A stretch of 64,000 bases of DNA from Ectothiorhodospira sp. BSL-9. GTDB lineage: Bacteria; Pseudomonadota; Gammaproteobacteria; Ectothiorhodospirales; Ectothiorhodospiraceae. Below the pieces are notes generated by a model. That model searched no databases, was not told the DNA's origin, and saw only the letters and a program-made list of their open reading frames with translations. The position numbers and the translations under genes are program-made. Below, piece after piece: positions 41,545 to 64,000 of this stretch. Location: contig NZ_CP011994.1 of NCBI RefSeq assembly GCF_001632845.1, positions 868,001-932,000 on the forward strand. Direction: 5' to 3'. Numbering within the stretch: position 1 is the first letter of the stretch; each line of letters opens with the position of its first letter.

Positions 41545-41554
41545 GGGTCGGTCC

Positions 41555-45351: not shown

Positions 45352-45564
45352 ATGGCCGAGCAGGACGATCGCTGGTTATCCGTCGACGAGATAGGCAAGC
45401 ACCTTGGTGTCAGCAACGACACCGTGTACCGCTGGATCGACAAGCACTCAATGCCTGCCCACCGTATGGGGCGATTCTGGAAGTTCCAAAAGGTCGAGGT
45501 GGACGAGTGGGTCAAAGCGGGGGGAGCCGCCGAAACACCACGCAAGGATCAGCGTCGCGAATGA
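45352..45564 (+). CDS. Excisionase/MerR-type helix-turn-helix protein at head of BREX operon
   Basis: A 70-residue DNA-binding protein: WLSVDEIGKHLGVSNDTVYRWIDKHSMPAHRMGRFWKF is a complete excisionase-family (HTH_17) domain. The ATG at 45352 is chosen; an in-frame start 11 codons earlier is possible. Its stop overlaps the brxA start by four bases (ATGA), so it is an integral operon gene. It may act as a transcription regulator of the island (a role taken by the unrelated BrxR in other BREX loci) or guide a BREX component to DNA. Confidence 0.8.
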   Translation: MAEQDDRWLSVDEIGKHLGVSNDTVYRWIDKHSMPAHRMGRFWKFQKVEVDEWVKAGGAAETPRKDQRRE

Positions 45565-46783: not shown

Positions 46784-46826
46784 ACGGACGACAGCATTCG
46801 AGGCGCCATCATTAAGGGAAAGTGCA

Positions 46827-49800: not shown

Positions 49801-50396
49801 TCTATGTGTCCGGGGACGAAATCGAGCAGATTCGCACCATTCTGAACGACCCCAATTGCTACAAGGGGAATCGCATTCAGCAGCTCAAGGGCCAGCTTGA
49901 CAGCCTGCAGGCGCGCATCAATAAAAAGGTGCAACAAACCCGGTCTCAGGCAGAAACGTCCCTGAAGACCATGCAGGAGCGCATGCAAACCATGGATGAA
50001 TATCAGTCCCTTCCGGAACCACGCCAGGATGAGCTCAACAAGCCGTTCCGGGATCTGTCCGATGACATCGGGCAGGAGCGCCTGATTGCCGTGATCAAGG
50101 ACCGGGCCCGGTACTTTGAAGAAGAGGGCTACCAGAAACTGCTGGGCAAAATGGTGGATATGGCCCGGCAGAAGTCTGCACCGGCAGGAAGTCCCGAACA
50201 GCCACAGGGTGGCGAGAATGGCAGGCCGCCTCATGGGATCAAGGAATTACCTGCCGACTACATTCACTTGCGCAACCTCCAGGTTGCGTTTGACAAGGCC
50301 TGGCTGGCCGACGAAAACGACCTGGACCAGTACCTGAACGCTTTACGCGATGCCCTGCTGACTCAAATTCAGCAAGGCCTGAAGGTTCGAATCTAA
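46827..50396 (+). CDS. brxC: BREX protein BrxC, large P-loop ATPase
   Basis: A 1,189-residue ATPase. The start is the ATG at 46827 (MTLKNIFLKPVDRPIEGVIKAD, the standard BrxC opening); the open frame extends 31 codons upstream without similarity. Walker A is GFFGSGKSH at residues 64-72, in the GVWVSGFFGSGKSHLLKMLA context, and NFFVDEVGQYIADN is the Walker-B-like segment. The C-terminal third is rich in coiled-coil helices (residues about 1020-1130). BrxC is related to Orc/Cdc6-like AAA+ proteins and is a core defence component. Three bases separate its stop from the next open frame. Confidence 0.93.
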   Translation: MTLKNIFLKPVDRPIEGVIKADDEASLRLEIEEYVLTNEVEKRLEEFLDAYNNYEGANGVWVSGFFGSGKSHLLKMLALLLENREMGGASTLDLFLPKCSDNEILRGDLKRAVSIPAKSILFNIDQKADVISKTQIDALLAVFVKVFDEMCGYYGKQGHIAQFERDLDSRGLYQQFKNEYEGIAGRSWHKGREQALLEGANIANAYAAVTGGDRQSAAGILDKYRSEYRVSIEDFADNVNAYIEKQAKERGHEEFRLNFFVDEVGQYIADNTKLMTNLQTIAESLATKCRGRAWIIVTAQEEMKDVVGEMSKQQGHDFTKIQARFNNRMKLSSADVAEVIQKRLLTKTEDGVNQLSDVYHAQANNFKTLFGFADGSATYRNFRDRDHFIHSYPFAPYQFALFQSAIQNLSQHNAFEGKHSSVGERSMLGVFQQVAIQISNHEVGQLATFDLMFEGIRSALKSQIQRAIIQAENHLDNAFAIRLLKALFLVKYVKEFKPTVRNLCVLMLDAFEQDLPALRDRVEEALCLLEQQTYIQRNGDQYEYLTDEEKDVEQEIKNTEVESSDVADELEKIVFDYVIKQRKIRHDAGSSQNQGQDYAFSRKLDDRLHGREYELSINVISPFHEHTDNEQMLRTASTYKADELFVLMPSDERLVRDLLMFKRTEKYIKQNISVTQQAAVKRILNDKSFQNREREARLRQQVQTLMGQSKLLIGGADVEVTNEHAQTRIIRGFHELIARAYPNLRMLRGVAYTEKDISHCLNRSDEGLFGNDTTALAESEQEVLAFIQSNNRGGVRTTLKSLLERFERKPYGWYYAAILCTLANLCARGKLEVRLDGNILEGSELERALRNTHGHGNVVLEPQIEFTASQVRGLKSFYEDFFDSPPRSSEAKALGKEAGEAFQEMFQDLDRRIAQVDQYPFLNALQPALDTLKEVAGKPYTWHLTELSRQENQLLDLKENVIDPIRKFMGGSQKDIYNQARSFLQSQEPNFIYVSGDEIEQIRTILNDPNCYKGNRIQQLKGQLDSLQARINKKVQQTRSQAETSLKTMQERMQTMDEYQSLPEPRQDELNKPFRDLSDDIGQERLIAVIKDRARYFEEEGYQKLLGKMVDMARQKSAPAGSPEQPQGGENGRPPHGIKELPADYIHLRNLQVAFDKAWLADENDLDQYLNALRDALLTQIQQGLKVRI

Positions 50397-50419
50397 GCGT
50401 GCCGACCCAGGGGATAGCC

Positions 50420-52090
50420 ATGCACGACGCCGAACAGGAGATCCGGGCGCTCATTCGCGGCGGCGAAAACCTTGCCGTTGAGTTCAAGAGCGACGTCAAA
50501 AGCCTGCCTGACCGGGAACTGGTGGCCGCCGTGGTGGCCCTGGCCAACACCGAGGGCGGCGACCTGTTCCTGGGCATTGAAGACGATGGCACACCGACCG
50601 GGCTGCATGCCAACCACCGTCACCTCACCGGCCTGCCCGCACTGATTGCCAATAAGACCATTCCATCACTGGCGGTGCGCGTCGAGGCCCTGGAACTGGA
50701 AGGGCAGCCCATTGCCAGAATCCACGTACCCAAATCCCGGCAACTGGTATCCACCTCGGAAGGTCTTCTGCAACGTCGGCGCCTGAGAATGGACGGCACC
50801 CCGGAGGCCGTGCCCTTCTACCCCCATGAGTTTGTTCAACGGCAATCCAGCCTGGGCGTAACAGACCCCTCTGCCCTGCCGGTGGAAAACCTTGCGATTG
50901 AGGATCTGGATCCGATCCAGCGTATCCGCATCCGCAACGCCATCAAGAAATACGGTGGCGACCAGAGCCTGACCCCTCTGGCGGATGATGAGTTGGATGG
51001 CGCCCTGGGGCTGACGGTGAGCATAGATGGCCAGCGCCACCCCACCGTGGCGGGCTTGTTACTGCTGGGAAACGAGACGCAGCTCCGGCAGCACCTGCCC
51101 TCCCACGAGGCAGCGTTCCAGGTGCTGCGGGGCACGGATGTTTTGGTCAATGAGTTCTACCGCAAGCCGCTGCTGGAGACCTTTGAAGAGATCGAGGTGC
51201 TATTCCGCGCCCGGGTCGAGGAAGAGGAGATTCAGGTCGGGCTGTTTCGCGTGCCCATCCCCAACTTCGACCGCCGGGCCTTCCGGGAAGCCTTCGTGAA
51301 CGCTCTGGTTCACCGCGACTACAGTGCTCTGGGCGCCGTGCACGTCAAACTGGACGATGACGGCCTGAGCATCAGTAATCCGGGTGGTTTTGTGGAGGGC
51401 GTCAACCTGGACAACCTGCTGGTGGCCGATCCCCGCTCCCGCAACCCCCTGCTGGCCGACATCATCAAGCGCATCGGCCTGGCAGAACGCACGGGTCGGG
51501 GCATTGACCGCATCTTCGAGGGCATGCTCCGCTATGGGCGTACCGCCCCCGACTACTCCATGTCATCCGCCCACACCGTCTCCGTGCGCATGAGCGCAGC
51601 GGACGCGGACGCCGAGTTCCTGCGCATGATCGTCGGACGCGAGGAACAGACCGGTGCCGCCATGCCCATCGACAGCCTGATCATCCTGTCCCGGCTGCGC
51701 AATGAGCGGCGCTTAAGAACGGCGGATCTGGCCGGGTCCGTGCAAAAGCCCGAAACCGTGGTCCGGGGCACCCTGGAGAAACTGGTGGAGGCCGGCATGG
51801 TGCAAGCCCACGGCACGGGCAAGGGCCGTACCTACACTCTGAGCGCCAAGGTGTACCAGGGGGCGGGACAGAAGGCGGCCTATGTGCGCCAGGCGGGTTT
51901 TGATGCCATCCAGCAGGAGCAGATGGTGCTGAATTTCATCGATACCCACGGCAGCATCAAACGTGGGGATGTCATGGAGCTTTGCCACCTCGATAGAAAC
52001 CAGGCTTACCGGCTGCTAGCCAGAATGAAAGCCACCAAGCAAATCAAGCAAATGGGTGAGCAGAAAGGCGCTACTTATGAGCGTGTTTAA
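50420..52090 (+). CDS. AlbA_2/GHKL ATP-binding transcriptional-regulator-like protein within BREX operon
   Basis: A 556-residue protein with an N-terminal AlbA_2 (Schlafen-related, 'divergent AAA-4') domain: ENLAVEFKSDVKSLP and VALANTEGGDLFLGIEDDG, residues 13-60. A GHKL-type ATP-binding region follows around 290-370 (FREAFVNALVHRDYSALGAVHV; LSISNPGGFVEGV; GLAERTGRGIDRIFEGM). Two C-terminal winged-helix segments end the protein (RTADLAGSVQKPETVVRGTLEKL and SIKRGDVMELCHLDRNQAYRLLARM). Such proteins are often nested in BREX operons between brxC and pglX, but their function is unclear. Just downstream lie 19-base operator-like repeats that it might bind. Confidence 0.85.
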   Translation: MHDAEQEIRALIRGGENLAVEFKSDVKSLPDRELVAAVVALANTEGGDLFLGIEDDGTPTGLHANHRHLTGLPALIANKTIPSLAVRVEALELEGQPIARIHVPKSRQLVSTSEGLLQRRRLRMDGTPEAVPFYPHEFVQRQSSLGVTDPSALPVENLAIEDLDPIQRIRIRNAIKKYGGDQSLTPLADDELDGALGLTVSIDGQRHPTVAGLLLLGNETQLRQHLPSHEAAFQVLRGTDVLVNEFYRKPLLETFEEIEVLFRARVEEEEIQVGLFRVPIPNFDRRAFREAFVNALVHRDYSALGAVHVKLDDDGLSISNPGGFVEGVNLDNLLVADPRSRNPLLADIIKRIGLAERTGRGIDRIFEGMLRYGRTAPDYSMSSAHTVSVRMSAADADAEFLRMIVGREEQTGAAMPIDSLIILSRLRNERRLRTADLAGSVQKPETVVRGTLEKLVEAGMVQAHGTGKGRTYTLSAKVYQGAGQKAAYVRQAGFDAIQQEQMVLNFIDTHGSIKRGDVMELCHLDRNQAYRLLARMKATKQIKQMGEQKGATYERV

Positions 52091-52095
52091 GCGCT

Positions 52096-52155: not shown

Positions 52156-52223
52156 AACGCGGAAACGTACCGACAACACAGAGCGCCTGTCCTGCGTCCA
52201 TAAGCAATTCAGCAGGTTATTGA

Positions 52224-54020
52224 ATGGAAACCGCAAAACTCAAAAAATTCGCCCAGCTCGCCCGCCGCAGTCTGATTGAGCAGGTCAGCGCCAAGCTCAA
52301 GCTGGTTCTGGCTGAAGAAAGCTCTGCCCGGCGAGAAAGCCCTGAGGCCGTCAAGAAGCTGGAAGCGGCGATCGCCAAACTGGGCCAGGAGCAGGTCATC
52401 GAGCGCGTGGCCTATATCTGGTTCAACCGCTTCTGCGCCCTGCGTTTTATGGACGTGAACCGATACAACCGCCTTGGCGTGGTCTCGCCCACCGACGGAC
52501 AGTTTCAGCCCGAGATCCTGGCTGACGCCAAGATGGGCCATATCGATGAAGAGATGGTACGGGCAAAAACCCGACAACGGGTCTTTGCCCTACTGGATGG
52601 CAAAATGCCCAGCCAGGATCCCCAGGGGGAAGCCTATCGCCTGTTGGTGGTAGCCGCCTGTAACCATTGGCACAGCGCCATGCCGTTCCTTTTCGAACGC
52701 ATTGACGATTACACCGAGCTTCTCATGCCGGATGACCTGCTCTCCGGCAACTCTATTCTAGCCTACACCCGCGAGGCTATGACGCCGGGTGCCTGTGAGG
52801 ATGTTGAGATAATTGGCTGGTTGTACCAGTTCTATATATCCGAAAAAAAGGATCAAGTCTTCGAGGCGCTGAAGAAGAATCAGAAAATCACACCGGCCAA
52901 TATCCCCGCCGCCACGCAGCTTTTCACGCCGCGCTGGATTGTGCGCTACCTGGTGGACAATTCGCTCGGCCGCTTGTGGATGCTTAACAGGCCAAATTCA
53001 GGGCTGATCCGTAAGCTTGAGTATTACATCCCTCCGGATGAAGCCGAAACCGATTTCTTGAAAATCAACAGCCCGGAAGAGCTCAGGGTTTGCGATCCAG
53101 CCTGCGGCTCCGGCCATATGCTGACCTATGCTTTCGATCTGCTCTACGCCATTTATGAAGAAGAAGGCTACGAGCCGTCCGAAATCCCCGAAAAGATTCT
53201 GACGCACAACCTTTACGGTATTGAGCTGGATGAACGGGCCGGTGAGCTAGCCGCCTTTGCGCTAACCATGAACGCCCGAGCGCGTCAGCGGCGTTTTTTC
53301 AACAAAGGCATCAATCCCAACATCTGTGTGTTGGAAAACGTTAGCTTCACTCCGGATGAACTGGAAGAGTACATGAGCGCCGTGGGCCGTGACTTGTTCA
53401 CCCAGGGCTTATGTGAAAGCTTGCAACAGTTCGAGGAGGCTGACAACTTCGGCTCCCTGATCTTGCCCAAGCTTACCAAAGTGACTGACGTGCTAGCCGA
53501 GCTGGAGACCAAGAATCTGGGTAGCAACCTGTTCCTGGCCGACACGCACAGCAAGGTACTGAAAGTACTGCGTATGGCCGAAGCCTTGGGCCCGCGCTAC
53601 GCCGTGGTCGTCGCCAACCCGCCCTATATGGGCGGCAAGGGCATGAATGGACGGCTTGGCGCCTGGGCCAAGGAGAACTACCCAAAGAGCAAGTCCGACC
53701 TGTTCGCGATGTTCATAGAGCGCAACCTGGATATGGCCGTGAATGGCGGCGCTGTCGCCATGATCACGATGCAGAGCTGGATGTTTCTGTCTTCCTTCGA
53801 GGCTTTGCGCGGCCGCATTCTCAATCAGCACACTATTTTGTCGATGGCCCACCTGGGGGCGCGAGCCTTTGACAGCATTGGTGGGGAAGTTGTCTCGACG
53901 ACTGCTTTCGTGCTCGAGAACGCCCATAAGCCGCACTATCGCGGCGCGTTTCTCCGATTGGTCGATGGCAATTCGGAAGCCGACAAAATGGCCATGATGG
54001 CCAAGGCCATTGAGCAGTAG
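52224..54020 (+). CDS. pglX: BREX methyltransferase PglX, N-terminal (catalytic) half of split gene
   Basis: A 598-residue protein with the PglX start METAKLKKFAQLARRSLIEQV, the N6-adenine methyltransferase SAM motif Asp291-PACGSGH (motif I) and catalytic Asn465-Pro-Pro-Tyr (NPPY, motif IV) in VVVANPPYMGGKG. It also has MITMQSWMFLSSFEALRG and SIGGEVVSTTAFVLEN. It stops right after LRLVDGNSEADKMAMMAKAIEQ, where an intact PglX (about 1,200 residues) normally continues to FKKIPGSPIAYW and its specificity region. That continuation is found 5.2 kb downstream. The catalytic domain is complete, so methylation may still be possible if both halves assemble. An ATPase gene starts eight bases after this stop. 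Confidence 0.9.
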   Translation: METAKLKKFAQLARRSLIEQVSAKLKLVLAEESSARRESPEAVKKLEAAIAKLGQEQVIERVAYIWFNRFCALRFMDVNRYNRLGVVSPTDGQFQPEILADAKMGHIDEEMVRAKTRQRVFALLDGKMPSQDPQGEAYRLLVVAACNHWHSAMPFLFERIDDYTELLMPDDLLSGNSILAYTREAMTPGACEDVEIIGWLYQFYISEKKDQVFEALKKNQKITPANIPAATQLFTPRWIVRYLVDNSLGRLWMLNRPNSGLIRKLEYYIPPDEAETDFLKINSPEELRVCDPACGSGHMLTYAFDLLYAIYEEEGYEPSEIPEKILTHNLYGIELDERAGELAAFALTMNARARQRRFFNKGINPNICVLENVSFTPDELEEYMSAVGRDLFTQGLCESLQQFEEADNFGSLILPKLTKVTDVLAELETKNLGSNLFLADTHSKVLKVLRMAEALGPRYAVVVANPPYMGGKGMNGRLGAWAKENYPKSKSDLFAMFIERNLDMAVNGGAVAMITMQSWMFLSSFEALRGRILNQHTILSMAHLGARAFDSIGGEVVSTTAFVLENAHKPHYRGAFLRLVDGNSEADKMAMMAKAIEQ

Positions 54021-54028
54021 GGGGCGAC

Positions 54029-55171
54029 ATGATCAGTAGCTTACACCTCAAAAACTTCGTCGCCTTCACCGATCTTACCATCAAGTTCTCGCCGGGAATA
54101 AACATCATAATTGGTGAAAATGGCACGGGAAAGACACATTTGCTCAAAGCCATTCTCGCACTGAGCGGGCCGGAATCCCTTTCGGAGCATCCTGGCGAGC
54201 AACTCGCCCGCAAGCTCTGCCGGCTCTATCAACCGCTGGGTGAGCAAGTGGGCGAACTGCGCCGTACTGGCACTCGTGGGAATGCCATGCTTAGTGCCAC
54301 CTTTTCGTCTGGACAAGAAGTGTCCGCCAGGTTCAGCGGCATCGCCACTGAAACCAAAGTGAGGATTAACAGAGTCTCCGGCGCTGCTCCGGCCACCTTC
54401 ATACCGACTAAGGAGATTCTGTCTCTGGTCCGTGGCCTCACCGCCGGCCAGCCAGATCAAGCTACCATCGACCGCATCTTTGACGACGGCTACTTAGATC
54501 TGGCCCACCAGCTCATCAAAGAGGGTGCGGATGACCTTGAAACCAAAGTTCAGCTCGATCCACGGTTTGCCAGCATAGTCCCCCGGCTGGCCAACCTGAT
54601 CGGCGGTAGATACGAACTCCGCAACGGTCGATTCTGCTTTCAGGTTGGCAAGTACGTCGAAAAACTGGGCAAAAGCAGCTCGGCAGAGAAAGCTGCTCAG
54701 AGTTTTCAGGATTCGACCCTGCGTTTCGTGCCCGCAAAGTTGCCACTGCTCTCCAGCGGGATGACAGCTGAAGGGTATCGCAAAATCGGCGTGCTTCAGC
54801 GCTTGCTCAGTAACGGCAGCCTCAATCCCGGTGCCGCTGGCCCCCTGTTGTGGGATGAACCAGAGTCCAACCTTAACCCCAAGCTGATAAAGGATCTGGT
54901 ACTGGCGCTTCTGGAACTCGCTCGTAACGGCCAGCAAGTCATCCTCGCGACCCACGACTACGTGCTGCTTAAGTGGTTCGACCTATTAATGGATAAGGGC
55001 GAGGGGGACCAAGTGCGTTTTCACGTTCTGTCTCGTGAGGAAAAAACCGGGCAGGTGCACCGTGACAGCATGGATGACTACAAAGCCATCGAGCCGAACG
55101 CAATTGCAGACACCTTTAACGAACTGACCAAGGAGCAAGTAGCTCGCAAAATGCGAGGCTTGGGAAAATGA
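54029..55171 (+). CDS. ABC/SMC-type AAA ATPase of the inserted defence cassette
   Basis: A 380-residue ATPase: MISSLHLKNFVAFTDLTIKFSPGINIIIGENGTGKTHLL gives the RecF/OLD-like N-terminus with Walker A GENGTGKT (residues 29-36). The Walker B is LLWDEPESNLNP (Asp276-Glu277), the ABC-like signature region is LLSSGMTAEGYRKIGVL, and the switch histidine is in ILATHDYVLLKW. No TOPRIM nuclease domain is attached. A ribosome site GGGGCGAC sits before the ATG, eight bases after the pglX-N stop. In other defence systems such ATPases pair with a nuclease, and a PD-(D/E)XK-like gene follows after 72 bases. Confidence 0.88.
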   Translation: MISSLHLKNFVAFTDLTIKFSPGINIIIGENGTGKTHLLKAILALSGPESLSEHPGEQLARKLCRLYQPLGEQVGELRRTGTRGNAMLSATFSSGQEVSARFSGIATETKVRINRVSGAAPATFIPTKEILSLVRGLTAGQPDQATIDRIFDDGYLDLAHQLIKEGADDLETKVQLDPRFASIVPRLANLIGGRYELRNGRFCFQVGKYVEKLGKSSSAEKAAQSFQDSTLRFVPAKLPLLSSGMTAEGYRKIGVLQRLLSNGSLNPGAAGPLLWDEPESNLNPKLIKDLVLALLELARNGQQVILATHDYVLLKWFDLLMDKGEGDQVRFHVLSREEKTGQVHRDSMDDYKAIEPNAIADTFNELTKEQVARKMRGLGK

Positions 55172-55192
55172 AGCTGCGCGAGCGCGACTTAG

Positions 55193-55283
55193 AGGGAACT
55201 TCTATTAATTGCTTGCGACCGCCAGTAACCCATTGATTTTATTATGTTATCATCCCGGCAAATCGAATTAATAGAGGTTCCCT
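55193..55283 (+). promoter_or_regulatory. Long inverted repeat spanning the start of the nuclease gene
   Basis: AGGGAACTTCTATTAATT (55193-55210) and AATTAATAGAGGTTCCCT (55266-55283) are complementary over 18 bases with one mismatch. The 55-base loop holds the start codon at 55244, and the right arm is inside codons 8-13 of the gene. In the mRNA this hairpin would hold the start region in its loop. It could control translation of a toxic nuclease, or be a protein-binding dyad. Confidence 0.6.
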
Positions 55284-55786
55284 TAGAGATCGACTTCACC
55301 GATGCAATTGATGCCATCGTCTTCGATCAGATGAAGACGGAAAAACCGAACTATCATGGCATAGGCGAGATGCATCGCGTTGATTTTGTAGTGGAACTTG
55401 AAGAAGGTATTCTCTTTGTTGAAGTTAAGGATCCAAGCAACCCGAGAGCGCAAGCTAAAGGGCTTGAAAAATTTAATGAAGATCTAAAAAACGGAAGCCT
55501 AAGCGACACCTTTGCCGCGAAGTTCATCGACACCTTCCTGTACCGATGGGCTGAAGATCTCCTGCACAAGCCCGTGTATTACATCAGTCTGGTCACATTC
55601 GAAGATAGCGAACTTTTGCCAAATTTTTCGGACGAGATCGCCAAGAAGCTTCCCCCCATGGGCAAATCGATCCCGCGCTGGAAGCGACAGTTGGCAGAGA
55701 ATTGCCAGGTTTTCAACATCGAACTATGGAATCAGAGTTTCCCGAAATGGCCTGCGACTCGAATCACGCCAGCGGAAAACGCATAG
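55244..55786 (+). CDS. Putative PD-(D/E)XK-like nuclease
   Basis: A 180-residue protein. The segment MHRVDFVVELEEGILFVEVKDPS carries Asp47, Glu60 and Lys62, i.e. D-x12-E-V-K, the core of PD-(D/E)XK endonucleases, preceded by a helix. The C-terminal half (FIDTFLYRWAEDLLHKPVYYISLVTFED) fits the rest of the fold. It has no transmembrane segment. The ATG at 55244 has no strong ribosome site, and a long inverted repeat embraces it. It follows the ATPase gene by 72 bases and precedes the SIR2 gene by 17 bases. I cannot name a closer family; nuclease activity is inferred from the motif. Confidence 0.7.
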   Translation: MLSSRQIELIEVPLEIDFTDAIDAIVFDQMKTEKPNYHGIGEMHRVDFVVELEEGILFVEVKDPSNPRAQAKGLEKFNEDLKNGSLSDTFAAKFIDTFLYRWAEDLLHKPVYYISLVTFEDSELLPNFSDEIAKKLPPMGKSIPRWKRQLAENCQVFNIELWNQSFPKWPATRITPAENA

Positions 55787-55803
55787 GCAAAGGGGAGAAC
55801 GGC

Positions 55804-57165
55804 ATGACCATCAACACTCTCAAAGTACGTGATGACCATGTGCCGCTGCATTTCGCAGCCGACGGCGACAGGTTTAAGCTACAGTCAGGTAAGGAGGTTT
55901 CCTGGTTGAAGTCCGAAGAGTTCGACCTGAAAGACCTGCGAAACCGCATCGAACCTTGGTTGACCTCGCTGTTTCAGTCGGAGCACCTCTCTATGTTGGC
56001 TGGCTCGGGGCTGACTCATGCTGTGCACTACCTAGCCGCCGGGAAAGGCGCAGCTGGCATGGGCAACCTGACACTGAGCACACATCAGGCGGAAATTGAC
56101 CAGGCAGCGGAAAAAGCGGCAGAGGCAGCTGGGCGCAAGAAAGGTAACCTGGAAGATCAATTACGCATTGCCAACGAACTGTTGCGCGGCCTGGCAATTC
56201 TAGGGCAGTCCAAGGAAGTGGACGCCTTGCGCGGCGAGCTTCAAACCGGAATGCAGGACTTTGCACAGTCAATTCTGAGCAGCGAAGCGGGCATTGCCAC
56301 AGCTGAAAAGTCAAAGCGTGAGCAGGCGTTCAACACTCTGGTCACCTTCCTGATGAGTTTTGCCAGTCGCACAGGGATACGGGATCGCCTGAACATTTTC
56401 ACCACCAACTACGACCGGCTGATCGAGGCCGGAGCGGAGCTGGCCGGCCTGCACTTGCTGGACCGTTTCCTGGGTAATCTCATGCCGATCTTCCGCTCTT
56501 CACGGCTGGATTTGGACATGCACTATAACCCACCGGGCATTCGGGGCGAGCCACGCTATCTGGAAGGCGTTGCGCGCTATACCAAGCTGCATGGCTCGGT
56601 GGACTGGCTGCAAACCGGAAAAGATATTCGCCGTTTCGGGTTGCCCTTCGGAGCCGAAAACGTTGAACCGTATTTGAAGGCGCCCGGCCTCGGTGATGCT
56701 ACGGCCCATCGATTGATGATTTACCCTAACGCCGCCAAGGACCGGGAAACCGCTGATTACCCCTACGTGGAGCTATTTCGCGATCTCGCGGCGGCAGTGT
56801 GCCGCCCGAATAGCACAATGGTGACCTACGGCTACAGCTTCGGCGACGAGCACATCAACCGCGTGATCCGCGATATGCTCACCATTCCCTCAACCCATCT
56901 GGTCGTGATCTCTTATGACGACCCGCTCGGTCGCATCATGGAAACCTACGAGGAGATGGGCAGACCGTCGCAGATCAGTTTGCTGATCGGCCCCGCACTG
57001 GCCGACTTGAGTACATTGACTGAAAACTATTTGCCCAAGGCTGCCATCGACAAGACGACCTTCCGCATGAGCGAGTTGCTCAAGCAACGGTGGGGTGCTG
57101 AACAACCAGTTGATCAGAAAGCTCCAGAGAACGATCAGCCTGCTTATGGGGAGGGGCCGATATGA
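55804..57165 (+). CDS. SIR2-like NADase effector of a SIR2-HerA defence module
   Basis: A 453-residue protein with sirtuin-fold motifs: MLAGSGLTHAV (residues 64-74, the GAGxS-type NAD site), FTTNYDRLIE (Asn202-Tyr-Asp, the TxNYDxLIE motif), LHGSVDW with catalytic His263, and YGYSFGDEHINRVI (from Gly343). The ATG at 55804 follows GGGGAG. In SIR2-HerA (Nezha-like) systems, this subunit depletes NAD when activated by phage and forms a large complex with the HerA ATPase. Its stop overlaps the herA start by four bases (ATGA), typical of the pair. All catalytic residues look intact. Confidence 0.88.
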   Translation: MTINTLKVRDDHVPLHFAADGDRFKLQSGKEVSWLKSEEFDLKDLRNRIEPWLTSLFQSEHLSMLAGSGLTHAVHYLAAGKGAAGMGNLTLSTHQAEIDQAAEKAAEAAGRKKGNLEDQLRIANELLRGLAILGQSKEVDALRGELQTGMQDFAQSILSSEAGIATAEKSKREQAFNTLVTFLMSFASRTGIRDRLNIFTTNYDRLIEAGAELAGLHLLDRFLGNLMPIFRSSRLDLDMHYNPPGIRGEPRYLEGVARYTKLHGSVDWLQTGKDIRRFGLPFGAENVEPYLKAPGLGDATAHRLMIYPNAAKDRETADYPYVELFRDLAAAVCRPNSTMVTYGYSFGDEHINRVIRDMLTIPSTHLVVISYDDPLGRIMETYEEMGRPSQISLLIGPALADLSTLTENYLPKAAIDKTTFRMSELLKQRWGAEQPVDQKAPENDQPAYGEGPI

Positions 57166-59273
57166 GCCTGTCCCCACTGGCTTACGGTGACTCTCTGCGC
57201 ATCGGGACCATCGACTTCGTCTCGCCCGATGAAATCAAAGTACTGCTGGAGATTGAGGCCCCCGACGGTGTTGCGCTCAATACCGGTACGCCGCGCCCGT
57301 TCCCGCGCATCAATGGCTATGTGCTGATCCCCAGTGATGAAGGCCACTTGGTCGCCCAGGTAGAGTGGATCACTATCGAGCGCTCGCAGTATCCCAAGCG
57401 CCGAGGTATGCAGGATTTTGGCCTGGTGGACTTGCCCTACCCATTGCGCAAGATGAGCCTGAATCCCCTGGGCTGTCTGTTTTATGACGGCAGAAAAGCA
57501 AATAATGAGGAGAACTATCGATTCCGTCGCGGTGTCGAGAGCTATCCCACCGTGGGCGATTCTGTACTGCTTCCCACTCAAAATCAGCTGCGCGCCATCG
57601 TGAAATCAGGCGATAACCGCCACGTAATGATCGGCACCAGCCCCCTGGCTGCCAACGCCGAAGTGAGCGTTGATCCGGACCGATTGTTTGGACGCCATTT
57701 GGCTGTTCTGGGAAACACCGGCAGTGGCAAATCCTGCTCAGTTGCGGGTTTGATCCGTTGGTCTTTGGAGGCGGCGGAAAGGAAACGAGGTGAAAAACCC
57801 AACGCCCGCTTTATCGTACTCGATCCTAATGGAGAATACGCCAACGCGTTTGAAGGACTGGGCGATGTGCGCGTATATGCCGTCGAGCCCAATGATGGCA
57901 TCGAACAGCTGCAAGTGCCGCTGTGGTTCTGGAATAGCGAGGAGTGGAGTGCGTTTACTCAGGCGAGTGAACGTGCGCAACGTCCGCTGCTACGCAGGGC
58001 CCTCCGGGAAATGCGCAGTAGTTCCGATGTCGCTGAAGATACTGTGTTCGTTCTGCGTCGAAAAGTCAGTTCCATCCTTATTACTTTGAAGGCTCAAGTC
58101 CGCAACGGTGAAACTTATGAAGGGTGGAAGTTTGGCCCCAAGCTGCCGGTATTTATTGAGGATCTTGAAGCATTTTCACGTGAGTTCACTGATCACAAAG
58201 TGAGTTTAGAATTTCTTGCATCTCAGGTGCAATCTCTACTAGATCGCCCACGACAAAGGTTCCATAAACAGAACGGCCAGACTGGATACAACGATTTTCC
58301 CGCAACAGCGGTAGAGGAAGTCATTGCTCATTTTCAAGGATTCCTCGCCACCATCGGTGGAGCGGTTTATCAGGACGGTCCTAATGAGGACTCGCCTCTG
58401 GAATTTGACGGTGTCCAGTTCGCCGATCACCTAGAAGCATTGGCAAGCCAAGAAACGAACGCACAGTTTTTCGATTTCTTGATCATGCGGATTCGGACCA
58501 TGTTGTCGGATGCCAGAGTCAAACGAATCGTTACCGGCACTACAGAGCCATCCTTGACCGACTGGCTTGAGAAGCATATTGGAGATAACCAAGCCTCCAA
58601 TGGCTCCATCACTGTCATCGATCTCTCACTAGTGCCGGCGGAGGTAGTGCATATCATCACTGCGGTCATCGCGCGCATGACACTTGAGGCCCAGCAGCGT
58701 TACCGCAATCTGAACCAGGGCGATATCTTGCCTACAGTAATGGTAATGGAGGAAGCGCACACCTTCATAAGGCGCTACAAGGACGGCGCCGAAAACCAGA
58801 ATTCGGCAACCATCTGCTGCCAGGTGTTTGAAAAGATCGCCCGCGAAGGGCGCAAGTTCGGGCTGGGCCTGGTGCTGTCCTCTCAGCGCCCGAGTGAGCT
58901 GTCGCCCACCGTGCTTTCCCAGTGCAATAGTTTTTTGATGCACCGCATCAGCAATGACCGCGACCAAGAGTTGGTCCACAAGCTAGTGCCCGACAACCTG
59001 CGAGGCCTGCTGCGGGATTTGCCCTCGCTTCCATCTCAACATGCCATTCTCCTTGGGTGGGCCTCGGAGCTGCCGGTGCTAGTGCAGATGAACGCATTGC
59101 CTGAGCAGCATCGACCAAAGTCGGATGATCCGGATTTCTGGGCTGTGTGGTCAGGCAAGGATGATGACGGCGAGATAGTCGAGCGCGAGGTGGATTGGAA
59201 AGCGATTGCGGATGATTGGCAGCAGGTCGACGGACCGCCTCAGAAGCAGAATTTGGAGAAAAATGATGAGTAA
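57162..59273 (+). CDS. HerA-type hexameric ATPase/DNA translocase paired with SIR2
   Basis: A 703-residue protein: an N-terminal HAS-barrel (SLRIGTIDFVSPDEIKVLLEIE) is followed by a FtsK/HerA-like motor. Walker A is GNTGSGKS (residues 184-191) in FGRHLAVLGNTGSGKSCSVAGL. Walker B is VMVMEEAH (Glu530-Glu531) with REGRKFGLGLVLSSQRPSELSPTVLSQCNSF as sensor and coupling loops. In SIR2-HerA defence the two proteins form a supramolecular NADase/nuclease complex. Some of this gene (58000-58700) is lower in GC than its flanks. The herA stop overlaps the restarted pglX-C by 11 bases. Confidence 0.9.
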   Translation: MSLSPLAYGDSLRIGTIDFVSPDEIKVLLEIEAPDGVALNTGTPRPFPRINGYVLIPSDEGHLVAQVEWITIERSQYPKRRGMQDFGLVDLPYPLRKMSLNPLGCLFYDGRKANNEENYRFRRGVESYPTVGDSVLLPTQNQLRAIVKSGDNRHVMIGTSPLAANAEVSVDPDRLFGRHLAVLGNTGSGKSCSVAGLIRWSLEAAERKRGEKPNARFIVLDPNGEYANAFEGLGDVRVYAVEPNDGIEQLQVPLWFWNSEEWSAFTQASERAQRPLLRRALREMRSSSDVAEDTVFVLRRKVSSILITLKAQVRNGETYEGWKFGPKLPVFIEDLEAFSREFTDHKVSLEFLASQVQSLLDRPRQRFHKQNGQTGYNDFPATAVEEVIAHFQGFLATIGGAVYQDGPNEDSPLEFDGVQFADHLEALASQETNAQFFDFLIMRIRTMLSDARVKRIVTGTTEPSLTDWLEKHIGDNQASNGSITVIDLSLVPAEVVHIITAVIARMTLEAQQRYRNLNQGDILPTVMVMEEAHTFIRRYKDGAENQNSATICCQVFEKIAREGRKFGLGLVLSSQRPSELSPTVLSQCNSFLMHRISNDRDQELVHKLVPDNLRGLLRDLPSLPSQHAILLGWASELPVLVQMNALPEQHRPKSDDPDFWAVWSGKDDDGEIVEREVDWKAIADDWQQVDGPPQKQNLEKNDE

Positions 59274-61017
59274 CGTCCAAAATAATCGCACCCAACCAGT
59301 TGCGGACAAATATTTTTTCCAAGCTTCAGCAGCAGAATTCAAGAAGATTCCAGGGTGCCCAATTGCATACTGGGCAAGTGCGAGTATTTATTCTGCTTTT
59401 GATTCTGCTAAACGCATTTCGGATATGACATCTTTGCATCGAGGAATCTCGACAGGCAACACTGATCTGTTTGCGCGATTATGGCATGAGGTTCCAATAA
59501 AAAATCTGTGTATCGGCGATAATGGCGTAGAGTCAGCTCGTCTTTCCGTTGCACGATGGTTTCCATATAACCGAGGTGGATCTTTCCGCAAGTGGTACGG
59601 GTTAGGCATCGACATCTTAGATTATGAAAATAATGGTCGCAGGATGATTGAGTCTGCGGAAAAAGGCGAGTCCCCAGGATTCAGACATGATGGATCCTCT
59701 GAGTACTTCCTCCCTACAATAACTTGGACTGCGCTTACTGCTGGGAAGCCCTCATTCCGCCTTCTCGAAGCTGGTTATATATTGGGGCATAAGGGTTCTA
59801 GCATAAAGACACCGGACGGCAGCCGCTTGGCTTTTCTTTCTTTATTTAACAGTAATACTTTTGAGAGATTTCTAGAGTACACAAGTCCAACCTTGGATAT
59901 TAATATCTCTCAACTGTCGTCTTTGCCTCTGCCTGAAAATTTCGATTTTTCTCAAGCAGGTAACATGGCGATTGAATTGGTCAACCTGGGGAAAATAGAT
60001 TGGAACTCCTATGAAACTTCCTGGGACTTCACCAGCCTGCCACTCCTGAGTTCCGACCGCCGTCAGCCAACCCTGAAGGCCACCTACCAGAACCTCCGCG
60101 CCCACTGGCGGGAAATGACGCTGGAAATGCAGCATCTGGAGGAAGAAAACAACCGGATCTTCATCGACGCCTACGGCCTGCAGGGTGAGCTGACGCCCGA
60201 CGTGCCGCTGAGGGAGATCACCCTGACCTGCAACCCCCACTACCGCTACGGCAATGACAAGAGCGAGGAGGAGCTGGAGGCGCTGCTGCTGGCCGACACC
60301 ATGCGCGAGCTCATCTCCTATGCCGTGGGCTGCATGTTTGGCCGATACTCCCTGGACGAGCCGGGGCTGATCCTGGCCAACCAGGGCGAGACCATCGAGG
60401 ACTACCTCAAGCAGATCCCCGAACCCAGCTTCATGCCGGATGCCCAGAACGTGATCCCCATGATGGAGGGCGAGTGGTTCACCGACAACATCAATATCCG
60501 CTTCCGTGAGTTCCTGCGAACCACCTTTGGTGAAGCGCACTTCAAGGAAAACCTGGCCTTTGTGGAACAGGCGCTGGGCAAGGACATCCGCAAGTACTTC
60601 CTGAGGGACTTCTATAGCGACCATGTGCGCCGGTACAAGAAACGCCCCATCTACTGGCTGTTCTCCTCTCCCAAGGGCTCATTCAATGCGCTGATCTACA
60701 TGCACCGCTACCAGCCCCATACCGTAGGCACGGTGCTGGAGTATCTGCGCGATTTCAAGGATGAGAAGCTTCAGGCCCGGAAGAACCATCTGGAAGCCGT
60801 CAGCATCAGTGCGGGGGCCTCGCAGGGCGAGAAGACTAAAGCCCTGAAGGAGATCGAGAAGATCAACAAGATCCTCGCCGAGCTCGATAATTACGAACGG
60901 GATGTGCTTTACCCGCTGGCCACCGAACAGCTGGAAATCGACCTCGATGACGGAGTAAAGGCCAATTATCCAAATTTTGGCCCAGCCCTGAAGCATATTG
61001 CCGGCCTCTCCGGGTAG
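59263..61017 (+). CDS. pglX: BREX methyltransferase PglX, C-terminal (specificity) half of split gene
   Basis: A 584-residue protein continuing PglX: after a short non-family lead (MMSNVQNNRTQPVA) come FFQASAAEFKKIPGCPIAYW (normally directly after the catalytic half), a putative target-recognition region (residues about 30-240, ending SLPLPENF), and the conserved C-terminus (EITLTCNPHYRYGNDKSEEEL, ISYAVGCMFGRYSLDEPGLI, KKRPIYWLFSSPKGSFNALIYMHRYQPHTVGTVLEYL). The ATG (or the next ATG at 59266) follows TTGGAG and overlaps the herA stop, so translation is coupled to herA. Together with the 598-residue half it would give about 1,180 residues, the usual PglX length. The first about 740 bases are much more AT-rich than the rest. 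Confidence 0.9.
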   Translation: MMSNVQNNRTQPVADKYFFQASAAEFKKIPGCPIAYWASASIYSAFDSAKRISDMTSLHRGISTGNTDLFARLWHEVPIKNLCIGDNGVESARLSVARWFPYNRGGSFRKWYGLGIDILDYENNGRRMIESAEKGESPGFRHDGSSEYFLPTITWTALTAGKPSFRLLEAGYILGHKGSSIKTPDGSRLAFLSLFNSNTFERFLEYTSPTLDINISQLSSLPLPENFDFSQAGNMAIELVNLGKIDWNSYETSWDFTSLPLLSSDRRQPTLKATYQNLRAHWREMTLEMQHLEEENNRIFIDAYGLQGELTPDVPLREITLTCNPHYRYGNDKSEEELEALLLADTMRELISYAVGCMFGRYSLDEPGLILANQGETIEDYLKQIPEPSFMPDAQNVIPMMEGEWFTDNINIRFREFLRTTFGEAHFKENLAFVEQALGKDIRKYFLRDFYSDHVRRYKKRPIYWLFSSPKGSFNALIYMHRYQPHTVGTVLEYLRDFKDEKLQARKNHLEAVSISAGASQGEKTKALKEIEKINKILAELDNYERDVLYPLATEQLEIDLDDGVKANYPNFGPALKHIAGLSG

Positions 61018-61027
61018 GAGTCAATTC

Positions 61028-62308
61028 ATGCACATTCACAGCGTGACCTTGCAGCGCTTCCGTGGTGCCGACGATCTATCGCTAGACCTGGATGACCACC
61101 TCAATGTGTTTGTCGGCATGAATGGCGCAGGAAAAACAAGTATCCTGGATGCTTCAGCGATCCTTCTGTCCTGGTTGGCGAATCGGATCAGGCATGCTGG
61201 TGCGTCTGGGCGTCCGATTGCAGAATCGGATATCAAGAATGGAGAGCCCTCAGCCAATCTAGCCATTCAGTTAAGCGATGAGGGCACCTGTTTCGGCTGG
61301 AACCTGGTGAAGGTGCGTAAGGGGTACAGCAAAAAGGAGTTGGCCTCTGTCCTGATCTCGGTATCCGAAACTGCCAAGGGCATTCAGGCCAGTATCACCG
61401 AGCATCGTGGGAAGGTAAACATCCCCTTGCTTGCCTACTACCCGGTGAATCGCGCTGTGTTGGATATTCCACTGCGCATCCGCGAGAAACATCAGTTCGG
61501 GCTGTTGTCTGCCTATGAGGAGTCGCTCACCAGTGGCGCCAACTTCCGTACGTTCTTTGAATGGTTCCGGGAGCGGGAAGATCTTGAGAACGAGAACCGT
61601 AAGTACAAAGATGATTTGATCAAGCCGGAGGATTTCGAATTCCCGGATCCTCAACTAACGGCTGTTCGGCGGGCCCTTGAGATTTTCATGCCGGATTTTC
61701 AAAACCTGACCGTAAGGCGGCAACCGCTACGGATGGAGGTGTCGAAGAAAGGCCAGCGGCTCACAGTAAACCAGCTCTCTGACGGCGAAAAGTGCTTGAT
61801 GGCCATGGTTGGCGATCTTGCCAGGCGCATGGCCATAGCCAACCCGGAGCAAGAGGATCCGCTGCTGGGAGATGGCATTGTGATGATCGATGAAATTGAT
61901 CTGCACCTGCACCCGAAATGGCAGCGTTTGGTAGTGCCCAGTCTGACACAGGTTTTCCCGAACTGTCAGTTCCTTATCTCCACTCATTCGCCGCATGTGA
62001 TTACCCACGTACAACCGGAGAATTTATTCCTTCTGAACATGACAGATGCCGGGAAACTGGAGGTTGTTCGCCCGAACGAGTCCTACGGGAAGACTGTGGA
62101 TAGAGTACTTGAGGATCTGATGGGCCTTGAGACTACACGCCCCAACCAAGTGGAAAGTGACCTTCGAGCGATTTACGAGAAAATTAGTGACGGTGAACTC
62201 GATACGGCCAGAGAAGGCATTGCTGTATTGGAAGAAGACATTGGCGAAGACCCGGAACTGGTGAAAGCCAAGGTGCTGATCAAACGCAAGGAACTGATTG
62301 GTCGATGA
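61028..62308 (+). CDS. ptuA: PtuA-like ATPase (Septu system)
   Basis: A 426-residue ATPase opening MHIHSVTLQRFRGADDLSLDLDDHLNVFVGMNGAGKTSILDASAI: Walker A GMNGAGKT (residues 30-37), Walker B VMIDEIDLHLHPKWQ (Asp288-Glu289) and THSPHVITHV switch. This pattern, with the neighbouring HNH gene overlapping by four bases, matches PtuA of Septu systems and retron-associated PtuAB. The ATG at 61028 has GGAG upstream and lies ten bases after the pglX-C stop. In Septu, the ATPase assembles with PtuB and releases its nuclease on phage infection. A length of 426 is near the short end for PtuA. Confidence 0.85.
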   Translation: MHIHSVTLQRFRGADDLSLDLDDHLNVFVGMNGAGKTSILDASAILLSWLANRIRHAGASGRPIAESDIKNGEPSANLAIQLSDEGTCFGWNLVKVRKGYSKKELASVLISVSETAKGIQASITEHRGKVNIPLLAYYPVNRAVLDIPLRIREKHQFGLLSAYEESLTSGANFRTFFEWFREREDLENENRKYKDDLIKPEDFEFPDPQLTAVRRALEIFMPDFQNLTVRRQPLRMEVSKKGQRLTVNQLSDGEKCLMAMVGDLARRMAIANPEQEDPLLGDGIVMIDEIDLHLHPKWQRLVVPSLTQVFPNCQFLISTHSPHVITHVQPENLFLLNMTDAGKLEVVRPNESYGKTVDRVLEDLMGLETTRPNQVESDLRAIYEKISDGELDTAREGIAVLEEDIGEDPELVKAKVLIKRKELIGR

Positions 62309-62940
62309 AACATGTGAAAAAGCGCCAAGAGCCCGAGGCCTTTACTCAATGGAAAGCTCTGGCCAATGAGGATTGGCAGCCCACCTATGACGACTTGATT
62401 GGTGAGCCCAAAGCTGCGGTAAAGGGAGCGTTGATGCAGGAGCAGGGCTACCTCTGCTGCTATTGTGAGCGCCGGTTAACCGAGGCGGATTCTCATATAG
62501 AGCACTTCCAGCCCCAGAGAGACCCGGCTGTGGATCCGTTGGATTACAGCAATCTTTTGTGTTCTTGCCAGAACCAGATCAGGAAGGGTGAGCCCCGCCA
62601 CTGCGGCAACCTGAAAGGTGACTGGTTTGACCCCGAGCTGTTGATATCTCCGCTGGACCCGTATTGCGAAAACCGGTTTGCTTTTGAAGGTGATGGATTG
62701 ATTAAGCCCGCTGATATAAACGATCATGCAGCAAGTGAAACCATCAACAGACTGGGTCTGGATATCCCCAAGCTGAACGACCTCAGGGCAAGTGTCATTG
62801 ACCCGTTTCTGGAGGACAGTCTGACCCAGGATGAGCTACGCCGGTTTGTTTCGGGCTATTTGAAAGTGGGCGACGATGGCCGTTTCGCTGAATTCTGGAC
62901 CACTATCAAATACCTATTTGGAGACCTGGCCGCCGCATGA
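62305..62940 (+). CDS. ptuB: PtuB-like HNH endonuclease (Septu system)
   Basis: A 211-residue protein of the retron-associated HNH family (TIGR02646 type). Residues 48-88 read QGYLCCYCERRLTE, SHIEHFQPQRDP and YSNLLCSCQ: Cys51/Cys52/Cys54, His64, Glu66, His67 and Asn83 make the metal and HNH-type site. The first 45 residues are helical and Lys-rich. The ATG overlaps the ptuA stop (ATGA), and its stop overlaps the pglZ start the same way. The gene therefore bridges a Septu pair into the BREX operon. Confidence 0.87.
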   Translation: MKHVKKRQEPEAFTQWKALANEDWQPTYDDLIGEPKAAVKGALMQEQGYLCCYCERRLTEADSHIEHFQPQRDPAVDPLDYSNLLCSCQNQIRKGEPRHCGNLKGDWFDPELLISPLDPYCENRFAFEGDGLIKPADINDHAASETINRLGLDIPKLNDLRASVIDPFLEDSLTQDELRRFVSGYLKVGDDGRFAEFWTTIKYLFGDLAAA

Positions 62941-64000
62941 GCAATCGAGTTTCTCAGGCATTAACAAAATTATTCGAGCGGCACCGGATCGTGTTCTGGT
63001 ACGACACCAAGCAGGAGTTGCGCAGTGACTTCGAGGCGGTTTCCGTCCCGGACGTGGAGAAGCTTGAGATCGCCAACAATGAGTATGGTCTGAAATATCG
63101 TGTTCTGCGGGAGTCACCTGAACAGAAGTTCCTGCTGTACAAGGAGGGTCCACAACCGGAGGACCTGGACAACTGGTTGCTGGACGTACAGCTGGCCCAC
63201 GGCGAGTTCAGGACCGACCAGGTGGCCATCTGGCTATCCGAGCTGGAGCTGGGTCTGGAGTTTGCCGAGGTAGCGCAGGCTCACACGGAGTTTTTCCAGG
63301 CGATCAGGCGCAAGGAGGCGTTGAAGAAGTTGCTGAAGCCGGACGACACCGCCGGCCAGTTGCGCCTGAAGATGCTGGCCGTGTGTGCCGGTAGCGAACC
63401 CCGCATGGACTCGGTGGTGGAAACCCTGCTGCAGCAACTGGCAGAAGGGCGCGACGACGGCGTTCGGCTGATCGAACGCTGTGGTCTGGATGGCTTTTTG
63501 TGGGAGCAACTGACCCGTTTCTACGGCTACGAGGCCAGTGAACCGAGCCTCCGGGACTTCGCGCTCGAGCTGTTCAAGTCCTGCTACGCCATGGGTACCG
63601 ATGGCGAGGTCAGGTTGACCGGCGACGCCCTGGTGTTCCTCAAGCGCTGGAAGGACAGCCGCCAGTTTGAGAAAGGATTTGAAACCCTATCCGCCGAATG
63701 TGCCGAGGTGCTGGGCATTGAGCAGGATCTGGGCAGGCGGGACTTTCGGGATCTGGTTGAGCTGGATTACTTCCGGCTGATCGACCAGAAGATCATCAGT
63801 GATCTGGTGCGGGCGGTGGTGGGGCGCACGGTCACCAGCGGCGATGTGGCACTTTGGGTGCGTCAGCGGCGTCAGGGCCACTGGTATGGCGAGTTCCGCC
63901 ACCTGTATGAAGCCATTGAGTTTGCGGCCCGCTTTATCCAGATGCTGAGTGAGGCCAGCCTGAACATGGACAGCCTGACCGAAGGCGTTCAGCGATACAG
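62937..64000 (+). CDS. pglZ: BREX protein PglZ (BrxZ), 5' part only
   Basis: The frame starts with an ATG overlapping the ptuB stop and is open to the window edge (354 codons seen). It begins MSNRVSQALTKLFERHRIVFWYDTKQELRSDFE, the classic PglZ opening (FW(Y/F)D), followed by PEDLDNWLLDVQLAHGEFRTDQ, CGLDGFLWEQL and later the ALWVRQRRQGHWY region. PglZ is an alkaline-phosphatase-superfamily protein required for BREX DNA methylation and defence; its phosphatase domain is beyond this window. A brxL (Lon-like) gene should follow if the locus is a complete BREX type 1. Confidence 0.92.
   Translation, partial: MSNRVSQALTKLFERHRIVFWYDTKQELRSDFEAVSVPDVEKLEIANNEYGLKYRVLRESPEQKFLLYKEGPQPEDLDNWLLDVQLAHGEFRTDQVAIWLSELELGLEFAEVAQAHTEFFQAIRRKEALKKLLKPDDTAGQLRLKMLAVCAGSEPRMDSVVETLLQQLAEGRDDGVRLIERCGLDGFLWEQLTRFYGYEASEPSLRDFALELFKSCYAMGTDGEVRLTGDALVFLKRWKDSRQFEKGFETLSAECAEVLGIEQDLGRRDFRDLVELDYFRLIDQKIISDLVRAVVGRTVTSGDVALWVRQRRQGHWYGEFRHLYEAIEFAARFIQMLSEASLNMDSLTEGVQRY

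Follow-up and report, generated by a model that had tools for sequence, protein, structure and literature searches.

The closest described relatives of the locus reported here are the type 1 bacteriophage exclusion (BREX) systems of Escherichia coli HS and Salmonella D23580 (PDB 9ewz, 8c45, 8q56), in which the methyltransferase PglX, or BrxX, is fused, that is, made as one polypeptide. In E. coli BrxX, flexible hinge loops (residues 638-675) lie at the border between the methyltransferase domain (211-650) and the target recognition domain (TRD; 651-837) (PMC11842806), and the hinge of Salmonella PglX lies at 654-659 (PMC11341690); a 2025 review counts the TRD as an integral part of the BREX methyltransferase. 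We analyzed a 64,000-nucleotide stretch of the genome of Ectothiorhodospira sp. BSL-9 (NZ_CP011994.1, positions 868,001 to 932,000 of the forward strand; hereafter “the window”), in which a BREX type 1 operon carries pglX as two genes, pglX-N and pglX-C, with four defense genes, the “cargo”, between them.

The window has the same six core genes in the same order, and the same PglX domains, as the fused systems. It differs from them in that PglX is encoded by two genes broken at the hinge and that cargo lies inside pglX and not only between core genes. The operon reads brxA, brxB, brxC, a Schlafen/AlbA-HATPase gene, pglX-N, HEC-02A, HEC-02B, SIR2, HerA, pglX-C, a PtuA-like gene, a PtuB-like gene, pglZ and brxL. 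The core set of brxA, brxB, brxC, pglX, pglZ and brxL is therefore complete in one operon; brxL lies just beyond the end of the window, and the five core genes other than pglX are all intact. An earlier note on this DNA had described pglX as two intact open reading frames (ORFs) around four genes on the same strand, and the reading frames are as described. They lie about 5.2 kb apart and depart from the single polypeptide of about 1,200 amino acids that is the usual form of PglX, although not a strict requirement of the class. We consider it very probable that this is a two-subunit PglX whose former hinge serves as a slot for cargo, and that the split block moves by homologous recombination.

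The two halves of pglX and the joint between them

Both products are recognizable as PglX in their own right. In the BREX-1 PglX model NF033452 (1210 positions), pglX-N covers positions 1-644 (761 bits) and pglX-C positions 645-1209 (637 bits), each alone scoring above the curated 500-bit cut-off. The PADLOC model PDLC02525 (607 positions) matches pglX-N nearly end to end (E 3.9e-280), as PDLC02516 (593 positions) does pglX-C. When compared with the solved proteins by phmmer, pglX-N aligns to residues 73-633 of BrxX, and pglX-C aligns from residues 643-646 of PglX/BrxX, reaching residue 1219 in PglX. Because these alignments end at 633 and begin again at 643-646, and in view of the published hinge positions, sequence comparison places the break at the joint between the two jaws of the enzyme, with the methyltransferase on one side and the TRD on the other. 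The gap-free join predicted by the earlier note is borne out by the profile. Three fused relatives (L040, L045, and L061) have 2 to 6 residues between their N and C matches; only these three align to the end of the N half, the others stopping earlier and giving no clean number.

An intact pglX elsewhere, an outcome named in advance as speaking against a two-part PglX, was not found: the 3.55-Mb single-contig genome of the window has no further pglX by PDLC02521, a full PglX model (all 4 of 4 candidates scored), and three other whole genomes with a split pglX (G304, G811, and G124) have no PglX beyond the two halves (all candidates scored: 4, 5, and 3, respectively).

The C half has a start of its own. 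From the ATG at 59263 it would encode 584 amino acids and overlap herA by 11 bases, which is the overlap previously proposed; from the ATG at 59266 it would encode 583 amino acids with an 8-base overlap. The second is favored by its spacing from a Shine-Dalgarno-like GGAG and by the relatives L063 and L064, in which the sequence at this site, TTTGGAGAA, is identical. Of the 15 pglX-C starts viewed, most have a purine-rich Shine-Dalgarno-like site ahead of them, a weak one in the case of L080 and G124. This site falls within the 3' end of a present or former cargo gene in the window, L063-L067, L074, and L077. Many split C genes share a leader resembling MSxx...EKYFFRAS, and in the 15 cases viewed the leader ahead of the conserved segment is about 7-26 residues long.

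The precision of the break and the gap-free join would also suit a split intein that rejoins the two halves by trans-splicing. However, the N half stops a few residues past its conserved end and the C leaders are short, which, given the sizes of inteins, leaves no room for one, and we regard the likelihood of splicing as negligible.

Both halves are under purifying selection. In simple pairwise estimates, with a high synonymous rate (dS) in several pairs, the ratio of nonsynonymous to synonymous rates (dN/dS) was 0.06-0.125 for five pairs of N halves and 0.18-0.35 for four pairs of C halves, the latter values probably being raised by TRD differences. Cargo genes gave 0.05-0.10 in three comparisons (HEC-02A, HerA, and the reverse transcriptase UG5).

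Recurrence of the split and the cargo in the gap

The arrangement is not a one-off but belongs to a recurrent class. GTDB genomes were scanned with an alignment of PglX-N halves, and the best 80 of 560 confirmed candidate loci were used. The N half ends at the hinge, the methyltransferase/TRD border, in 16 of these 80, a proportion that is not a prevalence since the loci were ranked by similarity to the window protein. The C half is next in order in 12 of the 16 split loci: it is complete and separate in 11, and in L077 its first 54 residues are present before the contig ends. The remaining four (L068, L079, L088, and L113) run off their contigs within the cargo. The 64 loci outside this group of 16 were counted as fused, some of them cut by contig ends; two of these (L069 and L076) have a frame break away from the hinge and without cargo. 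A split at the same border was also found in the whole genomes G304, G124, and G811. Because the same split recurs across loci, chance is excluded as its cause. A decayed pglX-C in relatives, likewise named in advance as adverse, was not observed, this half being intact in them.

An even phylum-level sample of 398 genomes gave 11 with an N-half match above 400 bits, four of them split, including the genome of the window, and a class-level sample of 369 genomes gave five above the cut-off, only the window being split. Among 244 genomes from the order of G304, 15 were above the cut-off with two clear splits (G304 and G811), shorter frames having been partly inspected. Both matches among 74 genomes from the family of G168 are split, one of them with the N half only before its contig ends. 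Named hosts of split loci are Gammaproteobacteria, Betaproteobacteria, Mariprofundaceae, Chlorobiota, and one metagenome-assembled genome (MAG) of Kiritimatiellae, several of the loci being on MAG contigs. Pseudomonas benzenivorans, Halopseudomonas oceani, and Alloalcanivorax marinus are among the strains with a split pglX. Matches to pglX-N also occur in 284 plasmid records and in six phage records; of four plasmid records inspected, three are fused and one has the gene in three annotated pieces. That one, a Hymenobacter plasmid (L164 8001-11532), has its three pieces in succession, free of cargo and with the break not at the hinge. In another genome (G449:C1:62071-65835) pglX contains several in-frame stops and frame changes and is an example of real decay. 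In the Chlorobiaceae split locus L079, a short second PglX-N match (2388-2594) lies upstream of the main one and is perhaps a remnant.

One possibility for the split is that a cassette broke pglX by insertion, leaving halves that are non-functional or in early decay and a BREX system that is switched off. An insertion within a gene usually kills it, HEC-02B of the window itself bears a repeat insertion, and pglX genes with broken frames do exist, as G449, L069, L076, and the Hymenobacter plasmid illustrate. Yet these broken examples show no cargo in the break, and the N part in G449 has four in-frame stops, whereas the same break point with intact halves is found in 16 of the best 80 loci, dN/dS is well under 1 for both halves, the C half is equipped with a leader and a Shine-Dalgarno-like site of its own, and brxA, brxB, brxC, pglZ, and brxL are intact. 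Insertional decay is therefore very unlikely, and the split pglX looks like a maintained design and not a broken gene. The earlier statement that the locus is free of decay needs a small correction: an 89-bp repeat with inverted ends lies at the start of HEC-02B.

It could also be speculated that only one half keeps a role in BREX, for instance PglX-C recruiting BREX to sites without methylation, or that the halves act independently. The domains fold separately in the known structures, and the N-terminal domain of Salmonella PglX can be purified alone (PMC11341690). On the other hand, both halves are constrained, in 12 of the 16 split loci the C half comes next in order, and PglX is needed for restriction as well as modification where tested (PMC12707154), all of which makes a single-half role distinctly improbable.

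With cargo called by profile matches, and the remainder by similarity, within the stretches covered, at least seven kinds of cargo are found in the gap; the genes listed here are co-directional with pglX. HEC-02A/B is found in the window, L064, L067, L068, and L074; SIR2-HerA in the window and L064, with SIR2 also in L068, where the contig ends; the UG5-nitrilase reverse transcriptase in L063, L065, L066, L067, L072, L110, G304, and G811; Shedu in L065; an HEC-02A-like ATPase with a small partner protein in L066 and L080; a DUF1016/YhcG nuclease in L077, L079, L099, and L110; Schlafen/AlbA-HATPase in L088, L099, L113, L118, and G124; and an AriA/AriB-like (PARIS-like) pair in G124. The cargo families are partly shared with other BREX slots: in 27 of the 64 fused loci HEC-02 is the immediate upstream neighbor of pglX, and HEC-02A has that place also in the split locus L072. 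The same cargo outside pglX had been named in advance as evidence against a two-part PglX, and to this extent it exists; the outcome was mostly favorable otherwise. A single BREX operon of Pacificibacter maritimus (L125 4212-13522) has two full fused pglX genes in tandem, separated by HEC-02A/B. In this sample UG5 goes with the split slot: within the stretches covered, a full-length copy was found in 6 of the 16 split loci and in 0 of the 64 fused ones, and the gap in split pglX is a strong context for this little-studied class of reverse transcriptases.

The cargo of the window had been read as a single SIR2-HerA cassette of four genes. There are four genes, but they make up two PADLOC systems, HEC-02A/B and SIR2-HerA. 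SIR2 and HerA are adjacent and match the PADLOC families, as that database defines a SIR2-HerA system, and they score below the NCBIfam anti-phage cut-offs (NF042942, 114 of 500 bits; NF042944, 225 of 850; NF042943, 196 of 800). By these scores they appear to be of the same kind as the NCBIfam anti-phage SIR2 and HerA but not the same equivalogs. HEC-02A adjoins HEC-02B, the arrangement that PADLOC lists as a candidate system; the PD-(D/E)XK nuclease fold earlier assigned to HEC-02B finds no support in Pfam, with 0 families matched. The start of HEC-02B has been altered by insertion of the 89-bp repeat, which has 17-bp near-perfect terminal inverted repeats, a 5-bp target duplication, and two further copies in the genome (85-86% identity). 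Because the present in-frame ATG lies inside the repeat and no clear Shine-Dalgarno site precedes it, expression of HEC-02B may be weak. Site-specific insertion of a cassette was considered and rejected, as no direct repeats were found in 53600-59700 and the sole 20-nt inverted-repeat pair there (80%) does not bracket the cargo.

Another reading is that the cargo guards the methylase, damage to or inhibition of the two-subunit enzyme triggering the embedded effectors. SIR2-HerA acts by NAD depletion and abortive infection, and embedding favors co-expression. A PARIS-related pair lies inside the split pglX of G124, and PARIS guards against Ocr, which is also a BREX inhibitor (PMC12839542). However, a specific physical link predicts one conserved partner, whereas at least seven cargo kinds share the slot, scars show that they are replaced, and several of the families also stand elsewhere in BREX operons beside fused pglX. 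This variety gives no support to the earlier proposal of a guard tied specifically to SIR2-HerA, and neither does L063, which holds a reverse transcriptase together with a HerA scar. A guard that is triggered in this way seems unlikely; a generic guard or backup role for cargo is possible.

Scars, mosaicism, and the origin of the split

The closest relative of the window pglX-N (91% identical) is that of L063, from Alloalcanivorax marinus, which carries the reverse transcriptase in its gap and, directly before pglX-C, a stretch that resembles the last 91 codons of herA (69% identical). L077 and L074 similarly have other cargo and yet keep 52-67 residues of the UG5 C-terminus before pglX-C. If pglX-C is translationally coupled to the gene ahead of it, as we infer, such scars would be explained by the need for a cargo 3' end to start pglX-C.

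The window locus is, to judge by its similarities, a mosaic: a split-type block in a BREX operon otherwise closest to marine loci that mostly have a fused pglX. BrxB, BrxC, the AlbA gene, PglZ, and BrxL are 88-94% identical to those of the fused marine loci L070, L082, L084, and L092 and of split L063, and PtuA is 90% identical to that of L082 and L092. HEC-02A, SIR2, and HerA are 81-88% identical to those of the split Pseudomonas loci L064/L068, and the four marine fused loci gave no match to SIR2 or HerA. In pglX itself, N residues 481-598 have split loci as their nine best matches (82 loci compared). The ten best matches to C residues 1-40 are split as well, in part a leader effect since fused loci lack the leader; with the leader removed (C residues 15-40), the eight best matches are split. 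Further on, C residues 451-583 reach 91-94% identity with fused marine loci and, among split loci, come close to this with L063 only (92%), the next being at most 78%. The TRD has no close relative, its best match in the set being 36%. Most simply, a fused pglX would have had its corresponding segment replaced by a block that begins late in pglX-N and ends early in pglX-C.

Trees of the halves were built without L039 (the 8,340-bp contig of L113 read from its other strand), G811, G882, and G906; the C trees comprised the 73 rows with more than 400 amino acids of C. On the whole-N tree of 83 rows the split state changes 6 times, at least 5 of them forced by supported branches. A single split clade, a group named after the tree was seen, was rejected on whole N by the approximately unbiased (AU) test (p 6.6e-148, or 4.8e-5 minus two long rows). 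By segment, there were 9 changes (6 forced) on N residues 1-360, 8 (3 forced) on 361-480, and 6 (3 forced) on 481-598. In the C trees split rows are scattered among fused ones: on the full-C tree they are unclustered compared with shuffles (12 changes, shuffled mean about 13), and the 11 changes on the post-TRD C tree were reached in 22-32 of 500 shuffles. Because recombination inside pglX is evident, the change counts are unsafe and may reflect transplantation rather than separate fissions. TRD identity is uncorrelated with that of the N part in split and fused loci alike.

A second kind of split was found in G882 and G906. The PglX concerned belongs to a distant subfamily, its aligned parts being 25-28% identical to the window, and is divided into adjacent, cargo-free genes with an ATGA overlap. 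This break is earlier in the chain than that of the window; the two genomes are 73% identical in their N halves and 55% in their C halves, and G906 carries another, fused pglX. We take the split in these genomes to be an independent fission, which would make at least two fissions overall.

Apart from G882 and G906, the split could have a single origin and have spread by recombination and transfer. The similar leaders of many split C genes, the top rank of split loci for short segments around the break, and the apparent transplantation of the block in the window point in this direction. The rejection of a single clade on whole N, with 6 changes and at least 5 forced, and the at least 3 forced changes on residues 481-598 point the other way, as does the separate fission in another PglX subfamily. 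A single origin is thus possible, although we lean against it.

Proposed organization and comparison with known systems

We propose that PglX is made here as two subunits, PglX-N for methyl transfer and PglX-C, which contains the TRD, for specificity, and that these presumably assemble non-covalently across the former hinge and retain methylation activity. The hinge gap would be a slot for interchangeable, co-directional defense modules, in the window HEC-02 and SIR2-HerA, and translation of pglX-C would begin from the Shine-Dalgarno-like site that the last cargo gene carries in its 3' end; when cargo is replaced, the old 3' end could stay as a scar. The split block, composed of late pglX-N, cargo, and the start of pglX-C, would move between BREX loci via homologous recombination in the flanking pglX and could turn a fused pglX into a split one. 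The two-subunit PglX, first suggested in the earlier note, appears well supported by the hinge break, the gap-free join, purifying selection, the separate C start, and recurrence. It is the most economical reading because the halves are intact, co-encoded, constrained, and broken at the hinge, with no other PglX in the four whole genomes searched that have both halves.

Several observations weigh against this proposal. AlphaFold2 models of pglX-N (pLDDT 73, pTM 0.63) and pglX-C (pLDDT 65, pTM 0.40) are weak and uninformative on assembly, although the weak pglX-C model maps onto PglX structures over 570-582 alignment columns. The C-leader signal arises partly by construction, fused loci being without a leader, and for C residues 15-60 the best matches mix split and fused loci, with L063 outside the top 20. 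Identities of N and post-TRD C are correlated to a similar degree in split (0.76, 91 pairs) and fused loci (0.81, 1652 pairs). The C-terminal domain of Salmonella PglX resisted expression in isolation (PMC11341690), and E. coli BrxX does not methylate by itself (PMC11842806). The N/post-TRD C correlations give no support to a separate idea, that splitting lets C halves be exchanged faster.

A further extension combines an exchangeable specificity subunit with a trigger: if the pair came apart or were sequestered, as by an Ocr-like inhibitor, the abortive module embedded at that locus would be activated. As pglX-C would be translated through the cargo 3' end, loss of cargo would mean loss of specificity, and BREX would be addicted to its passenger. 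We consider this improbable.

The features of the locus are collected in Table 1. Of 15 loci compared, 8 have genes that are 88-92% identical to the Schlafen/AlbA-HATPase gene of the window. No structured RNA in 45000-64000 matched Rfam at the gathering threshold. Outside the operon, two adjacent, similar ORFs at 39979-43102 (one of 521 amino acids, the other ending at 43102) look like a tandem duplication, and from their sequence we take them to be cobyric acid synthase (CobQ)-like.

Table 1. Features of the BREX locus, in window coordinates
Feature	Position	Strand	Support and remarks
brxA	45507..46175	+	PADLOC BrxA E 1.9e-86
brxB	46172..46783	+	PADLOC BrxB E 2.4e-71
brxC	46734..50396	+	PADLOC BrxC 1905 bits; NF033441 1274 bits; ORF start, true start possibly further in
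Schlafen/AlbA_2 + HATPase_c_4 protein, accessory, brxC-pglX slot	50399..52090	+	Pfam SLFN_AlbA_2, HATPase_c_4
pglX-N, N-terminal and adenine methyltransferase domains, 598 aa, stop TAG	52224..54020	+	NF033452, PDLC02525, phmmer
HEC-02A ABC-type ATPase (cargo)	54029..55171	+	PADLOC PDLC04213 E 2.4e-102
89-bp repeat, within former 5' end of HEC-02B	55194..55282	.	sequence
HEC-02B (cargo)	55244..55786	+	PADLOC PDLC04229 E 1.3e-68; 0 Pfam families
SIR2 (cargo)	55804..57165	+	PADLOC PDLC04079 E 8.7e-164; likely start, set by similarity to L068
HerA translocase (cargo)	57162..59273	+	PADLOC PDLC04098 E 4.9e-273; Pfam DUF87
GGAG Shine-Dalgarno-like site of pglX-C, inside herA 3' end	59255..59258	+	sequence
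pglX-C, hinge, TRD, spacer, C-terminal domain, 583 aa	59266..61017	+	NF033452, PDLC02516, phmmer
PtuA-like ATPase, accessory, pglX-pglZ slot	60998..62308	+	NF041760 340 bits, under 500-bit cut-off
PtuB-like HNH nuclease	62305..62940	+	NF041761 108 bits, under cut-off; TIGR02646 over cut-off
pglZ	62937..64000, runs past window	+	PADLOC PglZ 1104 bits, BrxL 1215 bits on overlapping stretch L041

These data bear on annotation. Split loci may be labeled as a broken pglX or as two PglX proteins although they are probably active, and BREX counts and surveys of defense islands are possibly affected. Half-length PglX proteins are already clustered in PADLOC, whose PDLC02525 and PDLC02516 fit the two halves; its output files them as plain PglX and describes neither a split nor a cargo slot. 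The cargo, too, strongly matches known PADLOC systems, SIR2-HerA and HEC-02, and differs in its location inside a split pglX.

Defense modules co-encoded with the BREX core genes are already known, and Shedu, PARIS-like, Schlafen/HATPase, and OLD-ABC plus nuclease modules overlap with those described in the accessible text of PMC12839542 and PMC11341690. There the modules stand beside or between core genes, as BrxU and PARIS do between pglX and pglZ (PMC11341690), whereas here a core gene itself is divided. No description of a split PglX or of cargo inside pglX was found in searches of the open-licence PMC literature, against which the arrangement appears to be new. A core defense gene would thereby act as a docking slot, and the scars and mosaic boundaries suggest how modules are swapped and kept.

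The nearest mechanistic analogy, and only that, is HsdM and HsdS of type I restriction-modification, which are likewise separate methyltransferase and specificity polypeptides of one operon with variation in the TRD, and PglX-N and PglX-C would assemble in a similar manner. The window differs in having one TRD and the partners BrxA, BrxB, BrxC, PglZ, and BrxL; no match to HsdR was found among the proteins profiled between brxA and brxL. In the window the two genes are separate, and the pairing of their products is presumed. A recurrent natural class with the TRD encoded apart would tie BREX PglX to the HsdM/HsdS architecture and offers natural split points for its study.

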